DNA of 64,000 nucleotides from an uncultured Gemmata sp. GTDB taxonomy: Bacteria > Planctomycetota > Planctomycetia > Gemmatales > Gemmataceae. Each line of letters opens with the position of its first letter. Position 1 is the stretch's first letter. This document shows positions 24,482-64,000 of this stretch, in pieces. The DNA is taken from NCBI GenBank assembly GCA_937924775.1, contig CALDUT010000003.1, positions 1-64,000 on the forward strand. Reading direction: 5' to 3'. Below the pieces are notes generated by a model, which was given only the letters and a program-made list of their open reading frames with translations, had not been told where the DNA came from and made no database searches. A program made the position numbers and the translations under genes.

Positions 24482-24955
24482 TCACAACGTCGCGAAGACC
24501 TCCTTCAGAGATGGGAAGTTGAAGGCGAGAACCTGCCAGCCGGTAGGGCTATCGTAAACGACAATCACCCACGCCACGCACCCCCGTTGATACTTTTCGA
24601 GATAAGTCAGGCGAACCAGAGCCGGACTGATGCTCGTTTCGCGACAAAATTCCAATTCCCCGGCTTCACCATAATTGGTGACGAACTGTTGGCGTGTCGC
24701 CAAAACGCCTTCGCGGAGTTTCTTGAAGTCATCGTCGGGTAGCTCGCCAAAACCTGGGCGGAGTAGGCCAAAAAATTCGTCATACTTCCCGGTTTTGAGC
24801 AATTGCACCACCTCATCGGCAAACACCCGGGCAGCACTGGGCGGCGGAGGCGACCCACCAGCAGCTGGCGCGGGCAGCACCCGCGCCATGACAAAACTCA
24901 ACACCGCCCCCATCACGCCACCAAATAAACCAGCCCACCATACCGTTCGCGACAC
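24482..24955 (-). CDS. Membrane-anchored hypothetical protein
   Basis: A 157-residue protein of unknown function. Residues about 4-25 (TVWWAGLFGGVMGAVLSFVMARV) form one membrane anchor or uncleaved signal, then a Pro/Gly linker, then a roughly 110-residue domain. That domain starts FADEVVQLLKTGKYDEFFGLL and ends GWQVLAFNFPSLKEVFATL. The helix-then-strands pattern recalls small extracytoplasmic domains such as DUF3887/DUF4019, though I cannot confirm either. GTG 24955 with GGGGAG 6 nt upstream is the likely start. The longer frame to 25192 overlaps the neighbouring gene and has a low-complexity N-terminus. Confidence 0.6.
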   Translation of the reverse strand: MSRTVWWAGLFGGVMGAVLSFVMARVLPAPAAGGSPPPPSAARVFADEVVQLLKTGKYDEFFGLLRPGFGELPDDDFKKLREGVLATRQQFVTNYGEAGELEFCRETSISPALVRLTYLEKYQRGCVAWVIVVYDSPTGWQVLAFNFPSLKEVFATL

Positions 24956-56882: not shown

Positions 56883-56963
56883 GGCCAAGTGGCGGAATGG
56901 CAGACGCACTCGACTCAAAATCGAGCGCCGCAAGGCGTGTGGGTTCAACTCCCACCTTGGCCA
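56883..56963 (+). tRNA. tRNA-Leu (anticodon CAA)
   Basis: The 81-nt sequence has acceptor GGCCAAG/CTTGGCC, anticodon stem CTCGA/TCGAG around CTCAAAA (anticodon CAA), a class II variable arm GCGCCGCAAGGCGT and T-arm GTGGG-TTCAACT-CCCAC. The discriminator is A, as expected for Leu. CCA is not encoded. It reads UUG codons. Confidence 0.95.
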
Positions 56964-56992
56964 CTCACCTTCCCCCAACACTCCTCCAGGTC

Positions 56993-57808: not shown

Positions 57809-57892
57809 GCCGAGGTGGCGGAATTGGCAGACGCACCAGATTCAGGTTCTGGCGCCCGCAAGGGCGTGGAGGTTCAAGTCCTCTCCTCGGCA
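57809..57892 (+). tRNA. tRNA-Leu (anticodon CAG)
   Basis: The 84-nt class II tRNA has acceptor GCCGAGG/CCTCGGC, anticodon stem CCAGA/TCTGG around TTCAGGT (anticodon CAG), a long variable arm GCGCCCGCAAGGGCGT and T-arm GGAGG-TTCAAGT-CCTCT. The discriminator is A. It reads CUG codons. It is separate from the CAA isoacceptor 0.85 kb upstream. Confidence 0.95.
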
Positions 57893-57904
57893 CTGACTGC
57901 ATCC

Positions 57905-57936: not shown

Positions 57937-58235
57937 ATGTTTCCATTAGCCTAAATTCATCGGCCTATACTTCTTGAACAAGCTGTTAGGAAGCCTCTCT
58001 TGGCCGATTTTATTAGTTTTTCTTTATGGCTCAATTCGATTAACCCCTCCAGTGAAAAAACCGGTCCTCTGAAAAAACCGGTCCTCTCCCGACTGAGCCA
58101 TCGGCGGCCCGTGAGTGTCTTCGCGAACGACAAGCCTTTGTCACTCCCATCGGCAAAGTCGGTCAGTTTTTCGTAGTCGGTCCACAAGCAATGGAGTATC
58201 CTGTCCGCTAATCCACATGTTTGGGAGTCGCTGCC
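57937..58235. other. Gene-free stretch before the BNR/PDZ gene
   Basis: No credible gene is seen on either strand here. The left half is AT-rich for this genome. The only structure found is a 17-bp tandem duplication at 58053-58086. GGGAG at about 58223, 8 nt before ATG 58236, is the ribosome-binding site of the next gene. A promoter for that gene is expected, but no clear -35/-10 pair stands out. Confidence 0.5.
58053..58086. repeat. Tandem 17-bp duplication
   Basis: The unit TGAAAAAACCGGTCCTC occurs twice head-to-tail (58053-58069 and 58070-58086). Each carries an A-tract next to ACCGG. It lies in non-coding DNA. It may be recent slippage or a pair of protein-binding sites one and a half helical turns apart. 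Confidence 0.8.
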
Positions 58236-61200
58236 ATGATCTGGAGATTCTCTCGTTACGCGGTGGGCTGTTTTGCCTTTGTGGTGGGTGTGGGGCTGCT
58301 GACCACGACCCCCGATCACCAATTGTCGGCCCAACCCAAAGGCAAAGGGAAAGCGCGGGAGGAGAAAGACACGCCTCCGCCGCGCTTCACCCTGCCGGAA
58401 GAATGGGTGAAAGCCTTCAGTTGGCGGAACATCGGCCCGGCGAATATGAGTGGCCGCATCACAGCCATTGCGGTTTACGAGGCCGACCCGTCCACCTACT
58501 ATGTCGCAACGGCGTCCGGCGGTTTGGTGAAAACGACGAACAACGGCGTGACTTTCCAGCATCTGTTTGACAAAGAGGCAACTGTTTCGATCGGCGATGT
58601 GTGCGTCGCCCCATCGGACCGGAACATTGTGTGGGTCGGTACTGGGGAAAACAACCCGCGAAACTCCGTTTCGTATGGCGACGGTGTTTACAAAAGCACC
58701 GATGGGGGCAAAAGCTGGAAACACATGGGTTTGAAGAAGATCTTCCAAACGGGCAAAATCCTCATTCACCCCAAAAACCCGGATATTGTGTACGTTGGTG
58801 CCTTGGGCCGACTCTATGGGCCCAACGAAGAACGCGGACTTTTCAAAACCACCGATGGTGGCCAAACGTGGGAGAAAATCTTCTATCTCGATGAAAATAC
58901 CGGTGTCATCGACGCCCGGATGCACCCGACCGATCCCGATACGATCTATGTCGCCATGTGGGAGCGCCGCCGCGACGAATACGACTCTTGGCCCGGCGGC
59001 GGCATCCCCGACGGCTACGACACCTACGACCCGGTGAAAAAATGGGGCAAAAATGCCGGCATCTACAAAACCACCGACGGCGGCAAAACTTTCCAGAAGC
59101 TCACCCAGGGCTTACCCACCAACGACATGGGCCGCATCGGGTTGGACATTTACCGGAAAAATCCCAACGTTCTCTTCGCGATCGTCGATTGCTCCAAAAT
59201 CGGTATGGGTACACCTCCCAAAAAAGGGCCAGCCCCGGGGAATGCCTACATGGGCATTTTGGGCGAAGATGCGGAAGGCGGTGCGGGGGCCCGGCTCATT
59301 CGCGTCGTCGCCGATGGCCCGGCAGACAAAGCCGGACTGAAAGTCGATGACATCGTGACCAAAATGGGGGACAACCGCATTCAAACCTATGACCAGATGT
59401 TGGAAGTCGCCGGCAAGGCCAAACCCAACGACAAGGTAACCATCGAGGTGATCCGCGATGGTAAAACCGTCACGATGGAACTTACCTACGGCGAGCGGCC
59501 GCAGCCGATGGGTGGGTTTGGTGGCCCCGGCGGCGGCACCGCCACCCGCCCCTACAGTGCCACCTACGGCGGGCAAGCCGCGAACGTTCAAGACCGCCAA
59601 GGGCCCAACAGCCACGAATACGGTGGCGTGTACAAATCCACTGACGGCGGCGAAACGTGGACGCGGATCAACAGCATCAACCCGCGGCCCATGTACTTCA
59701 GCCAAATTCGCGTCGATCCGAGCGATGAGAACTACGTTTACGTCCTGGGGGTGAACCTCGCCGTCTCCCGGGATGGCGGGAAAACCTTCCAAACCGCCGG
59801 TCGCGGCATCCATGCCGACCAACATGCCCTCTGGATCAATCCCAAAGACGGCCGTCATCAAATCATCGGCACCGACGGCGGCTTCTACACCACCTATGAC
59901 CGCGGCCAGAACTGGGACCACCACAACAACCTGTCCTTGGGGCAGTTCTACCACGTCGCGGTGTGCAATAAGAAGCCTTACTGGTGCTACGGCGGCCTGC
60001 AAGACAACGGCTGTTGGGGTCTTCCGAGTATCAAACTCGGTCGTCCTGGGCCGGTGAACGAAGATGTGATCTCCCTCAACGGCGGCGATGGTTATGTGTG
60101 TCGCGTCGATCCCAACGATCCCGACCAGATTTATGCCGAAAGCCAAAACGGTGGTATGATTCGCTACCACCTACGCACCGGCGAGCGAGCCTCGATCAAA
60201 CCGGTTCCGCCCCCCGGCGGTCCGCGTTACCGCTTCAACTGGAACACGCCTTACATCCTGTCGCATGCCAATTCACACATACTCTACTGTGCGGGCAACT
60301 ACGTCTTCAAATCCGTCAAAAAAGGCGATGATCCGAAGATCATTTCGCCCGAAATCACCCGCACCAAGCACGGTAGCGCCACCGCGTTGGCCGAATCGCC
60401 CAAAAACCCGGATGTTCTGTGGGTGGGTACCGACGATGGCTATTTGTGGATCACCCGCAATGGTGGCAAAGATTGGACCAATGTGACCGAGAAAGTCGGG
60501 CTGAAGAAACCAACTTGGGTCGCCACCATCGAAGCTTCGCGTTTCGCCGAAGGCCGGGCCTACGTCTGTTTCGATGCCCACCGGCTCGACGACGATAACC
60601 CATATCTGTACATGACCGACGACTTCGGCCAAACGTGGAAGCCTATCACCGCGAACTTGCCTTACGGCTCAACCCGGTGCTTGCGGGAAGACGTGGTCAA
60701 CCCCAATCTACTGTATTGCGGCACCGAATTCGCCCTCTTCGTGTCGCTGGATCGCGGCGGCTCGTGGACCAAACTCAACAACAACCTGCCGACTGTCGCG
60801 GTTCATGAAATCGCCGTTCATCCCACCGCCGGAGAAATCGTCGCGGCGACGCATGGCCGCAGTTTGTGGATTCTCGATGTCACCGCCCTGCGACAGATGG
60901 TCAGTGACAAAATCGCCACGGAGCCGACCTTGTACCGCCCCAACACCGTCACCCGCTGGCAACCGCTGCCGCGACACGGTTCGTCGGGCCGGCAGTTTGT
61001 CGGACAAAACCCGCCGCCGGGGGCCCACATCTACTACTCACTGCCCCAAAAAGCCGCGAAAGTGACGCTGGAATTCCAAGATGTCGAGGGCAAAAAGATC
61101 GCGGAGATGACCGGGCCCACCACCCCGGGGCTGCACCGCGTCACATGGAGTACCCGGGCAGCAACGGCTCGCCCGGGTGTTCTGCCCCCACTGGTTCCCG

Positions 61201-61343
61201 CGGGCACCTACCGTGTGGTTCTTAATGTGGACGGTCAGACGCAGGTTCGCGGTTTCAGCATCGAAGGCGACCCGGTACCGGAACGGAGTCTGCGTGCCGA
61301 AGAGGAGGACGATGAGGACCAGGAAGCCGAAGCCATCCAATAA
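58236..61343 (+). CDS. Secreted BNR/sortilin-type propeller protein with an inserted PDZ domain
   Basis: A 1,035-residue protein. After a signal or anchor (IWRFSRYAVGCFAFVVGVGLL) come BNR/VPS10-like blades with recurring Asp-box motifs (VYKSTDGGKSWKHM, LFKTTDGGQTWEKI, IYKTTDGGKTFQKL, VYKSTDGGETWTRI, LWITRNGGKDWTNV, LFVSLDRGGSWTKL). A PDZ domain is inserted at about residues 348-420 (GARLIRVVADGPADKAGLKVDDIVTKMGDNRIQTYDQM). A C-terminal beta domain (KVTLEFQDVEGKKIAEM, GTYRVVLNVDGQTQVRGF) precedes an acidic tail. It probably binds polymers or acts as a glycosidase/peptidase accessory. ATG 58236 has GGGAG 8 nt upstream. Confidence 0.85.
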   Translation: MIWRFSRYAVGCFAFVVGVGLLTTTPDHQLSAQPKGKGKAREEKDTPPPRFTLPEEWVKAFSWRNIGPANMSGRITAIAVYEADPSTYYVATASGGLVKTTNNGVTFQHLFDKEATVSIGDVCVAPSDRNIVWVGTGENNPRNSVSYGDGVYKSTDGGKSWKHMGLKKIFQTGKILIHPKNPDIVYVGALGRLYGPNEERGLFKTTDGGQTWEKIFYLDENTGVIDARMHPTDPDTIYVAMWERRRDEYDSWPGGGIPDGYDTYDPVKKWGKNAGIYKTTDGGKTFQKLTQGLPTNDMGRIGLDIYRKNPNVLFAIVDCSKIGMGTPPKKGPAPGNAYMGILGEDAEGGAGARLIRVVADGPADKAGLKVDDIVTKMGDNRIQTYDQMLEVAGKAKPNDKVTIEVIRDGKTVTMELTYGERPQPMGGFGGPGGGTATRPYSATYGGQAANVQDRQGPNSHEYGGVYKSTDGGETWTRINSINPRPMYFSQIRVDPSDENYVYVLGVNLAVSRDGGKTFQTAGRGIHADQHALWINPKDGRHQIIGTDGGFYTTYDRGQNWDHHNNLSLGQFYHVAVCNKKPYWCYGGLQDNGCWGLPSIKLGRPGPVNEDVISLNGGDGYVCRVDPNDPDQIYAESQNGGMIRYHLRTGERASIKPVPPPGGPRYRFNWNTPYILSHANSHILYCAGNYVFKSVKKGDDPKIISPEITRTKHGSATALAESPKNPDVLWVGTDDGYLWITRNGGKDWTNVTEKVGLKKPTWVATIEASRFAEGRAYVCFDAHRLDDDNPYLYMTDDFGQTWKPITANLPYGSTRCLREDVVNPNLLYCGTEFALFVSLDRGGSWTKLNNNLPTVAVHEIAVHPTAGEIVAATHGRSLWILDVTALRQMVSDKIATEPTLYRPNTVTRWQPLPRHGSSGRQFVGQNPPPGAHIYYSLPQKAAKVTLEFQDVEGKKIAEMTGPTTPGLHRVTWSTRAATARPGVLPPLVPAGTYRVVLNVDGQTQVRGFSIEGDPVPERSLRAEEEDDEDQEAEAIQ

Positions 61344-61373: not shown

Positions 61374-61401
61374 TTGACAGAGGGCGGTGGCAAGCTAAGC
61401 T
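61374..61401 (+). promoter_or_regulatory. Predicted promoter of the cimA leader
   Basis: A perfect -35 hexamer TTGACA (61374-61379) is followed after 16 bp by TAAGCT (61396-61401), which keeps the important T1, A2 and T6 of a -10 box. Transcription would start near 61408, some 25 nt upstream of the leader peptide. Confidence 0.5.
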
Positions 61402-61432
61402 ATTTAGCGTCAAAAAATTTGGGTATCGAACC

Positions 61433-61519
61433 GTGTTGACCCGAGTCGCGATTTCTGCCGTTCGCTCGACCACCGCCGTGGCAGTCGCGTGCGTTATCGT
61501 GATTATTACCATCGGGTGA
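61433..61519 (+). CDS. Branched-chain leader peptide of the cimA attenuator
   Basis: A 28-codon frame from GTG 61433 to TGA 61517-61519. It has six Val, five Ile and four Thr, one Leu, and near its end the run CVIVIITIG (V21-G28). It is too short and biased to be an ordinary protein. Such runs just before a terminator are the signature of ribosome-mediated attenuation, as in the E. coli ilvGMEDA and thr leaders. Ribosomes short of Val- or Ile-tRNA would stall at V21-I25, upstream of the antiterminator. The ribosome-binding site is weak; TTG 61436 is an alternative start. Confidence 0.65.
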   Translation: MLTRVAISAVRSTTAVAVACVIVIITIG

Positions 61520-61521
61520 AC

Positions 61522-61579
61522 GCGGGGTCGGCCTGGACATGAGCGACAACGACCCCGAAGCACCGCTTCGGGGTTTTTT
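61522..61579 (+). terminator. Attenuator: antiterminator and intrinsic terminator upstream of cimA
   Basis: The terminator is CCCCGAAGC (61553-61561) paired with GCTTCGGGG (61565-61573), 9 bp with a 3-nt loop, followed by six T. CGGGGTCG (61523-61530) is an exact complement of CGACCCCG (61550-61557) and would open the terminator by pairing with its 5' arm. CGACCACCGC (61467-61476) in the leader can also pair with 61522-61530 with one bulged A. A ribosome at the leader stop codon would cover the antiterminator arm and allow termination; one stalled at V21-I25 would leave it free. Confidence 0.75.
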
Positions 61580-61675: not shown

Positions 61676-63286
61676 ATGCGAATCGCCATCTACGACACCA
61701 CCCTCCGCGACGGCAGCCAGGGGGAAGGCGTCAATTTCTCATTGCAAGACAAATTGCTGCTGACCAAACGCCTTGATGAAATCGGGATCGATTACATCGA
61801 AGGGGGCTACCCGCTCTCCAACCCCAAGGATGCGGAGTATTTCCAGGCGGTGAAAGAGTTACCGCTGACCCATGCCCGTGTGGTCGCCTTTGGGATGACG
61901 CGCAAAAAAAACTCCGCGGTCCACAACGATACCGGACTGAAAGCGCTGCTCGCCGCACAAACCTCGGTGGTAACAATCGTCGGCAAAACGTGGGATTTCC
62001 ACGTCACGAACGTCCTCGGGACGACCTTGGACGAAAACCTCCAGATGATCGCCGATTCCATCACCTTCTGCCGCGACCATGGCCGGGACGTGTTCTACGA
62101 CGCCGAACACTTCTTCGATGGCTACCGTGCCAATCCCGACTATGCCCTGCGGACGCTGCAAACCGCCGCCGCCGCCGGAGCCGGTGTGGTCATTCTGTGC
62201 GACACCAACGGTGGCACTATGCCCGAACGGATTGCAGAAGTTATCCAACAGGTTCGCCGCGAGTTGCCCTGCGAAGTGGGGATCCACTGTCATAACGATT
62301 GTGATTTGGCTGTGGCCAACTCGCTAGCCGCAGTTCGAGCCGGGGCCACGCAAGTGCAAGGCACTATCAACGGCCTGGGTGAACGGTGTGGCAATGTCGA
62401 TTTGATCAGTGTTATTGCCAATCTCGCCTTGAAATATCAGTACGAGGTGTTGAAACCCGGCAGCCTGCAGCGGCTCACGGAAACGTCGCGCTACGTTTAC
62501 GAACTGGCCAACATGAATTTCCGCACAGGGCAGCCGTTTGTCGGGCAAAGCGCCTTCGCCCACAAAGGGGGTATGCACACTCACGCCGTCGCCAAAGACC
62601 CCAGCACCTACGAACACATCAACCCCGAAGCGGTGGGTAACGAACGGCGGATTCTCGTTTCCGAACTCTCTGGGCAATCAACCATTCTCACCAAAACGGC
62701 CAAGTACGAAATACAGCACGATAAAGCCCTCATGGCGAAAATTCTGCACGAGGTCCAGGAATTGGAAAATAAGGGTTACGAATTTGAAGCGGCCGAAGCC
62801 TCATTCGATCTGCTGGTGCGGAAAATCGCCAAGCTCCACAAGCCATGGGAAGTCCAAAACAAGCTCCGATTATACAAGCCATGGTTTGAACGGATCAGTT
62901 ACCGTGTCAATATCGAAGCCCGTGAGGATGGGGAACCGGTGACGGAGGCCACGGTGCGGCTGAGGATCAACGGGCAGATCGAACACACCGCCAGTACCGG
63001 TGATGGCCCGGTCAATGCCCTCGACGGAGCGTTGCGCAAAGCGCTGGTGCCATACTTCCCCCGCTTGCAAGAAATGCAATTGGTGGATTACAAGGTGCGG
63101 GTGGTGAACCCGCGGGCCGGCACCGCGGCGCGGGTCCGCGTCGTGATCGAATCCCGCGACCCAACCGATGTCTGGGGCACGGTCGGCGTCAGTGAGAACG
63201 TGATTGAGGCCTCATGGTTGGCACTGGTCGACAGTATTGAGTACAAACTGTTCAAGGATGTCGAACGCCGCTCCGGGGAACAGTGA
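61676..63286 (+). CDS. cimA: (R)-citramalate synthase
   Basis: A 536-residue enzyme of the LeuA/CimA family that condenses pyruvate and acetyl-CoA to citramalate, the threonine-independent entry to isoleucine. The HMGL-like TIM barrel has YDTTLRDGSQGEGVNFSLQDKL (metal Asp and catalytic Arg) and IEGGYPLSNPKD. It continues with CDTNGGTMPERI, the HxH metal site in VGIHCHNDCDLAVANSLAAVRAGATQVQGTINGLGERCGN, and AHKGGMHTHAVAKDP. The C-terminal LeuA-type dimer/regulatory domain (about 390-530) should bind isoleucine. FSLQDKL and the EGGYPLSNPKD block favour CimA over 2-isopropylmalate synthase. A leader-peptide attenuator lies upstream. Confidence 0.9.
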   Translation: MRIAIYDTTLRDGSQGEGVNFSLQDKLLLTKRLDEIGIDYIEGGYPLSNPKDAEYFQAVKELPLTHARVVAFGMTRKKNSAVHNDTGLKALLAAQTSVVTIVGKTWDFHVTNVLGTTLDENLQMIADSITFCRDHGRDVFYDAEHFFDGYRANPDYALRTLQTAAAAGAGVVILCDTNGGTMPERIAEVIQQVRRELPCEVGIHCHNDCDLAVANSLAAVRAGATQVQGTINGLGERCGNVDLISVIANLALKYQYEVLKPGSLQRLTETSRYVYELANMNFRTGQPFVGQSAFAHKGGMHTHAVAKDPSTYEHINPEAVGNERRILVSELSGQSTILTKTAKYEIQHDKALMAKILHEVQELENKGYEFEAAEASFDLLVRKIAKLHKPWEVQNKLRLYKPWFERISYRVNIEAREDGEPVTEATVRLRINGQIEHTASTGDGPVNALDGALRKALVPYFPRLQEMQLVDYKVRVVNPRAGTAARVRVVIESRDPTDVWGTVGVSENVIEASWLALVDSIEYKLFKDVERRSGEQ

Positions 63287-63331: not shown

Positions 63332-64000
63332 ATGGCGATTGAACTGCCGAAAACCTACGATCCCCAAGCGGCGCAGCAAAAGTGGCTCGCATTTTGGAAA
63401 AAGAAGGGTTATTTTCACTCCGATCCAACCCCGGACAAAACACCGTTCACCATTGTCATCCCCCCGCCCAACGTCACCGGGGCGCTGCATATGGGGCATG
63501 CGCTCAATAACACCCTTCAGGATGTTCTCATTCGCTGGCGGCGGATGCAGGGGTACAACGCCCTGTGGATTCCCGGAACTGATCACGCCGGGATCGCCAC
63601 ACAATCCGTGGTAGAACGGCTCATTTTCGCACAAGAGAAGAAAACTCGGCACGATCTGGGTCGCGAGGAACTGGTCCGACGCATCTGGGCCTGGAAAGAC
63701 AAATACGAAGCCCGCATTCTCGAACAACTTCAGGCTTTGGGGTCCAGCTGTGATTGGCGGCGGACCCGGTTTACTCTCGATCCCGTCTGTGCCCGTGCGG
63801 TGCGAGAAACCTTCTTCCGCATGTTCCGCGATGGCTACATCTACCGGGGCAAACGGCTGGTCAACTGGGATACGCAACTGCAAACCAGTGTCGCCGACGA
63901 TGAAACGTACACAGAAGAAACCCCCGGCAGCTTCTGGACCTTCCGCTATCCGGTTGAAGGAGAACCCGGGGTATTCATCGCCTTCAGCACCACGCGTCCG
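63332..64000 (+). CDS. valS: Valyl-tRNA synthetase, N-terminal part (runs off the window)
   Basis: The first 223 residues of a class I synthetase. Present are LPKTYDPQAAQQKWLAFWKKKGYF, the HIGH-type motif PPPNVTGALHMGHALNNTLQDVLIRWRRMQGYNALWIPGTDHAGIATQ, and SSCDWRRTRFTLD. The start of the editing domain is also seen (RGKRLVNWDTQLQTSVADDE, ending FSTTRP at the edge). The NVTGALHMGH wording is typical of ValRS and not IleRS or LeuRS. ATG 63332 is 45 bp after cimA on the same strand, so both may be under the Val/Ile leader attenuator. Confidence 0.95.
   Translation, partial: MAIELPKTYDPQAAQQKWLAFWKKKGYFHSDPTPDKTPFTIVIPPPNVTGALHMGHALNNTLQDVLIRWRRMQGYNALWIPGTDHAGIATQSVVERLIFAQEKKTRHDLGREELVRRIWAWKDKYEARILEQLQALGSSCDWRRTRFTLDPVCARAVRETFFRMFRDGYIYRGKRLVNWDTQLQTSVADDETYTEETPGSFWTFRYPVEGEPGVFIAFSTTRP

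Follow-up and report, generated by a model that had tools for sequence, protein, structure and literature searches.

A probable leader-peptide attenuator in front of the citramalate synthase gene of Gemmata and other planctomycetes

Leader-peptide attenuators of amino-acid operons

The leaders of ilvGMEDA, ivbL, leuL and thrL in Escherichia coli combine a short ORF that contains control codons in runs with mutually exclusive hairpins, and each belongs to its cognate pathway. The leader reported here, which precedes the citramalate synthase gene (cimA) of an uncultured Gemmata sp., resembles them in all these respects. It departs from them in its phylum and its genes, as well as in a peptide of Ile and Val with almost no Leu, and the planctomycete split between cimA (Ile/Val) and leuA (Leu) is likewise foreign to the E. 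coli leaders.

The attenuator of the Corynebacterium glutamicum ilvBNC operon (PMC11857589) shares with the Gemmata unit a short leader ORF near the promoter, an overlapping antiterminator and terminator, and a place before a branched-chain operon. However, it controls acetohydroxyacid synthase and not cimA, and its hairpin H1 acts as an anti-antiterminator, whereas in Gemmata the antiterminator arm (B) lies just past the stop codon and no blocking arm was found; unlike in C. glutamicum, ilvB of the Gemmataceae lacks such a leader. Candidate leaders of trp, ilvB, trpS and leuS, together with the LEU element of leuA, have been described in Actinobacteria (PMC1262725). That work is likewise a comparative prediction of attenuators outside the Proteobacteria, with other genes and sequences, and its abstract covers neither cimA nor planctomycetes; the leuA unit of planctomycetes, for its part, consists of a simple Leu leader and a hairpin. 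For Planctomycetes, a table in PMC2864571 lists the candidate structured RNA Rhodopirellula-1; the text of that paper mentions no leader peptide.

The window, that is, the whole stretch of 64,000 nucleotides analysed here, was searched against Rfam together with ten sources from relatives, and nothing equivalent was returned. An earlier note on this DNA knew of no case in planctomycetes or for cimA, and the open-licence literature searched agrees, holding no description of attenuation in planctomycetes, in Gemmata or for citramalate synthase, an earlier report elsewhere being possible.

The cimA leader and its recurrence in Planctomycetota

By nearly every feature examined, the unit (Table 1) appears to work like a classical leader-peptide attenuator. 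Direct reading of the window bears out three elements named by the earlier note: the TTGACA promoter, the exact complementarity between arms B and C, and a 9-bp terminator followed by six T. The -10 element is weak (3/6 matches), and the promoter scores 9/12, the best in the leader region; a generic scan of the window detected the terminator and, at its stricter threshold, no promoter. Control codons for Ile and Val lie close to the end of the leader ORF, with Ile at codons 22, 24, 25 and 27, and its last 25 codons contain 5 Ile and 6 Val, the mean of dinucleotide shuffles being 1.05 Ile (p=0.01). The 28-codon leader had been said to end in a Val/Ile/Thr run; the ORF and its Ile/Val part stand, while Thr proves specific to the genus, and what the leaders share is first Ile and second Val.

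Table 1. Elements of the cimA leader and adjacent genes (positions in the window)
Feature	Position	Strand	Description
Sigma70-like promoter	61374-61401	+	TTGACA 61374-61379, 16-nt spacer, TAAGCT 61396-61401
Leader peptide ORF	61433-61519	+	GTG start 61433, 28 codons, MLTRVAISAVRSTTAVAVACVIVIITIG, stop TGA 61517-61519
Small in-ORF hairpin	61467-61487	+	CCAC-CGCC-GTGG core 61470-61481; folds; synonymous-codon control z ~0
Antiterminator arm B	61523-61530	+	CGGGGTCG, exact reverse complement of CGACCCCG 61550-61557
Arm C	61550-61561	+	common to antiterminator (61550-61557) and terminator (61553-61561)
Intrinsic terminator C:D	61553-61579	+	CCCCGAAGC-ACC-GCTTCGGGG 61553-61573, TTTTTT 61574-61579
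cimA, citramalate synthase	61676-63286	+	TIGR00977, 705.6 bits (cut-off 450)
valS, valyl-tRNA synthetase, N-terminal part	63332-64000	+	runs off the window; best NCBIfam models are valine--tRNA ligase

Folding of the window sequence gives -15.7 kcal/mol for C:D and -14.6 kcal/mol for the B:C hairpin, an alternative pairing of exactly 8 bp that excludes the terminator. Since the two energies are close and the minimum-energy fold of the full-length leader favours the terminator, kinetics would have to decide between them, as in all such systems. In this GC-rich genome, the 8-bp B:C match of the window is not significant alone (p=0.29). The pairing gains support from comparison among relatives: over 82 leaders, each arm B binds its own C at -17.1 kcal/mol versus -14.4 for a foreign C, a difference reached in 0/5000 permutations, although shared ancestry inflates this figure.

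From the elements observed we infer the following course of events. Transcription would start just downstream of 61401, with a ribosome trailing the RNA polymerase through the leader. When charged tRNA-Ile or tRNA-Val is short, the ribosome would stall at the codons around 61496-61507 and arm B would be left exposed, free to pair with C before D is made, which would permit read-through into cimA-valS. Under good supply the ribosome would instead arrive at the stop codon, its front would cover B (stop codon plus ~11 nt), C would pair with D, and transcription would end at the T-run. The spacing fits this scheme, since B begins 4 nt past the stop codon, so that a ribosome at the stop should cover it and a ribosome at Ile codon 24 or 25 should not; the masking itself is deduced from the general size of the ribosome footprint. 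Such a three-arm design would be the simplest form of attenuator, in which the terminating ribosome masks B and no separate protecting arm is needed.

The genes that the earlier note had placed under this control are indeed cimA and valS, as their TIGR00977 and NCBIfam profile matches confirm. CimA catalyses the first committed step on the route from pyruvate to isoleucine, and the two structural genes fit the pathway of the leader amino acids. In the majority of relatives, some Omnitrophota included, valS lies shortly downstream of cimA. Elsewhere in the window, two tRNA-Leu genes (56883-56964 and 57809-57893, with CAA and CAG anticodons) stand less than 1 kb apart, a few kb upstream of cimA, and ARAGORN calls a 93-nt tRNA-Asp on the minus strand (24834-24926) that is not found by Rfam at gathering score and is possibly spurious.

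Within the family, 92 of 95 genomes yielded a homologue, these matches including the sister enzyme leuA, and 80 further homologous loci, mostly from Planctomycetota, were added. Upstream of cimA, the relatives show a constant succession of a promoter, a short ORF, a segment that complements the terminator's 5' arm, and the terminator itself. A promoter, an Ile/Val-rich short ORF and a terminator precede cimA in most Gemmataceae, and also in Planctomycetales, Pirellulales and Phycisphaerae; the arrangement is found in dozens of planctomycete genera. Leaders were called by detecting terminators automatically and taking, ahead of each one, the short ORF richest in Ile, with dinucleotide shuffles scored identically. 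The 84 leaders so obtained average 4.0 Ile in their last 25 codons versus 0.91 in the shuffles, and 61 of them are individually below p=0.05, shared ancestry being uncorrected in these values. TTGAC-N16/17-TANNNT occurs at the matching place before most of them, with a mean promoter score of 8.5/12 versus 4.1 in mononucleotide shuffles (p<=0.05 in 49/83). The leader stop codon usually lies ~20-50 nt before the terminator. Most relatives keep this terminator, as a rule at a distance of 22-180 nt upstream of cimA. Leaders from outside the family include ...VGAIVIIIGRHT (L048), ...ESAIITAIIIGDDA (L050), ...VGVRAGIIIGIIIVSCAP (L102, Phycisphaerae) and MTTANASIIAIAIIITYPM (L111). In four loci (L146-L149) the ATG stands so near the -10 element that the peptide might be made from a leaderless RNA. 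One genome (G061) has two copies of cimA (L146 and L196); both have an Ile/Val leader and a terminator, and these differ between the copies. A point against the attenuator reading is that several Gemmataceae lineages, for example L124, L125, L132, L134-L137, L140, L141, L143-L145, L151 and L191-L195, show no visible leader or terminator before cimA, which suggests losses or another control in these lineages.

The amino-acid signal is confined to the reading frame: Ile makes up 15-22% of leader residues, Val 11-23% and Leu only 0.6-4%, with 0-2.4% Ile in the other two frames and 5.2% Ile in CimA of the window genome. Leader Ile codons are preferentially ATT (168/265), and cimA of the window prefers ATC (19/28).

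The reading of the region as leader-peptide attenuation, put forward in the earlier note, is thus supported by the recurrence of its elements (leader ORF, Ile/Val codons, promoter, spacing from stop codon to terminator, and terminator) in many genera, by codon content and by gene context. The spread through the phylum, the parallel Leu leader of leuA and the in-ORF hairpin of the Gemmatales, both described below, go beyond what that note had seen. With high confidence, we regard the unit as an attenuator of transcription that is mediated by the ribosome, responds to charged tRNA-Ile (and tRNA-Val) and governs cimA, probably together with valS; as judged from sequence, the cimA leader is very probably a starvation-sensing switch in planctomycetes.

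A hairpin within the leader ORF, and alternative readings

The small hairpin in the ORF of the window is a diverged one, and the nearest relative also has another small hairpin at this site, where most Gemmatales relatives carry GCGCA-GGGAG-UGCGC. This latter hairpin is nearly invariant in 36 relatives from two families (L011, L019, L021, L023-L027, L030, L031 and many of L112-L190, with L180/L181) and is almost confined to cimA leaders of the Gemmatales. In a set of 39 Gemmatales leaders, GCGCAGGGAGTGCGC or a close variant directly follows two Ile codons, commonly ATC GCN ATT; the set was picked by a pattern requiring resemblance to the hairpin, which inflates any count taken within it. Across the 95 genomes of the family, the exact 15-mer has 28 occurrences; 26 belong to cimA leaders from ~13 genera. 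It appears again in the cimA leaders of two genomes of the second family (L180, L181). No spread to other genes is apparent, since exact matches outside cimA leaders are few, isolated and in unrelated sequence.

A general synonymous-codon test of the in-ORF hairpin over the leaders was weak (mean z -0.6). In three leaders (L020, L126, L128) the loop-closing A-U pair has become G-C with the loop kept and the peptide changed from AQGVR to ARGAR, and in three others (L004, L007, L008) the loop-closing pair is broken. The near-constant third positions and the A-U to G-C exchange with an intact loop favour an RNA element, but just one pair varies on both sides. A search of the leader RNA for a partner of the GGGAG loop gave none beyond chance (mean z -0.2 and +0.07). 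The most economical reading would be a hairpin that makes the RNA polymerase wait for the ribosome, with CsrA or another factor as a possible alternative. The loop matches ANGGA, the CsrA motif, in most leaders, and CsrA-family genes are present in 95/95 Gemmataceae genomes; a genome has between 1 and 9 matches, in many cases several. A two-input switch in the Gemmatales, in which the ribosome would read Ile/Val and the hairpin a second signal (CsrA or another factor, for instance), so that isoleucine synthesis would be tied to a global regulator, is a speculative extension that we consider quite unlikely.

The same hairpin bears on the idea that the leader works by nascent-peptide arrest and not by codon starvation. 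AQGVR, in many cases with A or AG next to it on the C-terminal side, appears in ~30 leaders and is reminiscent of GIR in the SecM stall motif, but in that pattern-selected, upward-biased set of 39 leaders the fourfold-degenerate third positions within the hairpin are near-constant (0, 3, 0 and 4 changes), while neighbouring Ala third positions are free, and the three leaders with ARGAR keep hairpin and loop at the expense of the peptide. The remainder of the SecM motif is missing, the complete FxxxxWIxxxxGIRAGP being absent from the leaders of the 84-case set, and the window leader has none of it, AQGVR included; arrest therefore seems very improbable. The unit could be real and yet respond chiefly to Val or Thr in the genus of the window, where Val reaches 23% and Thr 17.7% of leader residues (about 18%) and where valS follows cimA. 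Nevertheless, Thr falls to 3-7% outside this genus and Ile stays at 15-22%, and in the Gemmatales the Ile codon directly 5' of the hairpin is constant (ATT in 38 and ATC in one of the same 39 leaders, the selection of which favours uniformity), so we hold a main signal other than Ile to be unlikely.

Two further readings dispense with the leader peptide altogether. The hairpin is a normal intrinsic terminator, and the gene directly upstream (58221-61343), whose large product contains sortilin/BNR repeats along with a PDZ domain, lies on the same strand; the hairpin might accordingly be only the terminator of this gene and the short ORF an accident. Only the nearest relative (L003) has a homologue of this gene at the corresponding place, however, and other relatives have a different upstream gene with leader and terminator still kept before cimA, so that the unit travels with cimA. 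Moreover, a promoter and an Ile/Val-rich ORF, the latter not expected in shuffled sequence, sit between the upstream gene and the hairpin, and a mere terminator is scarcely credible. As for a T-box or a metabolite riboswitch, T-boxes commonly control valS and branched-chain genes in other phyla, but the Rfam search, T-box family included, gave no match in the window or the ten sources from relatives, and only the ORF, arm B and terminator are common to the relatives; we give this explanation practically no weight.

A possible division of labour with leuA

If the proposed attenuation holds, the mechanism would extend to a phylum and a gene on which no such report exists in the open-licence literature searched, and the conserved in-ORF hairpin of the relatives would be a concrete new element. 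It would also imply close coupling of transcription and translation in planctomycetes, a debated point on account of their unusual cell plan. A division of labour would emerge as well, where the sister enzymes CimA and LeuA each have a leader rich in the amino acid of their own product and ilvB, trpE and hisG do not: for these three genes, which served as negative controls, no cognate leader with terminator was found in 14 Gemmataceae genomes each.

In the Gemmataceae, leuA (L199, L200-L219) is preceded by a separate leader peptide rich in Leu and by a hairpin, a T-run not being required for the latter. These leaders contain 6.6 Leu codons versus 1.5, with 16 of 18 at or below ~p=0.05, as exemplified by MANLLLLLGLLLTLG and MRNNPLLGLLLLLQP. 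In the genome of the window, the leuA leader is MFLPLRFLNLRLLRPPRGGCASRFGE (L199, G000:C3:128900-129700), with a hairpin devoid of a T-run. Across the genus to which the window belongs, leuA leaders continue in frame beyond the Leu run with a conserved tail resembling PPRGRSSSRFG.
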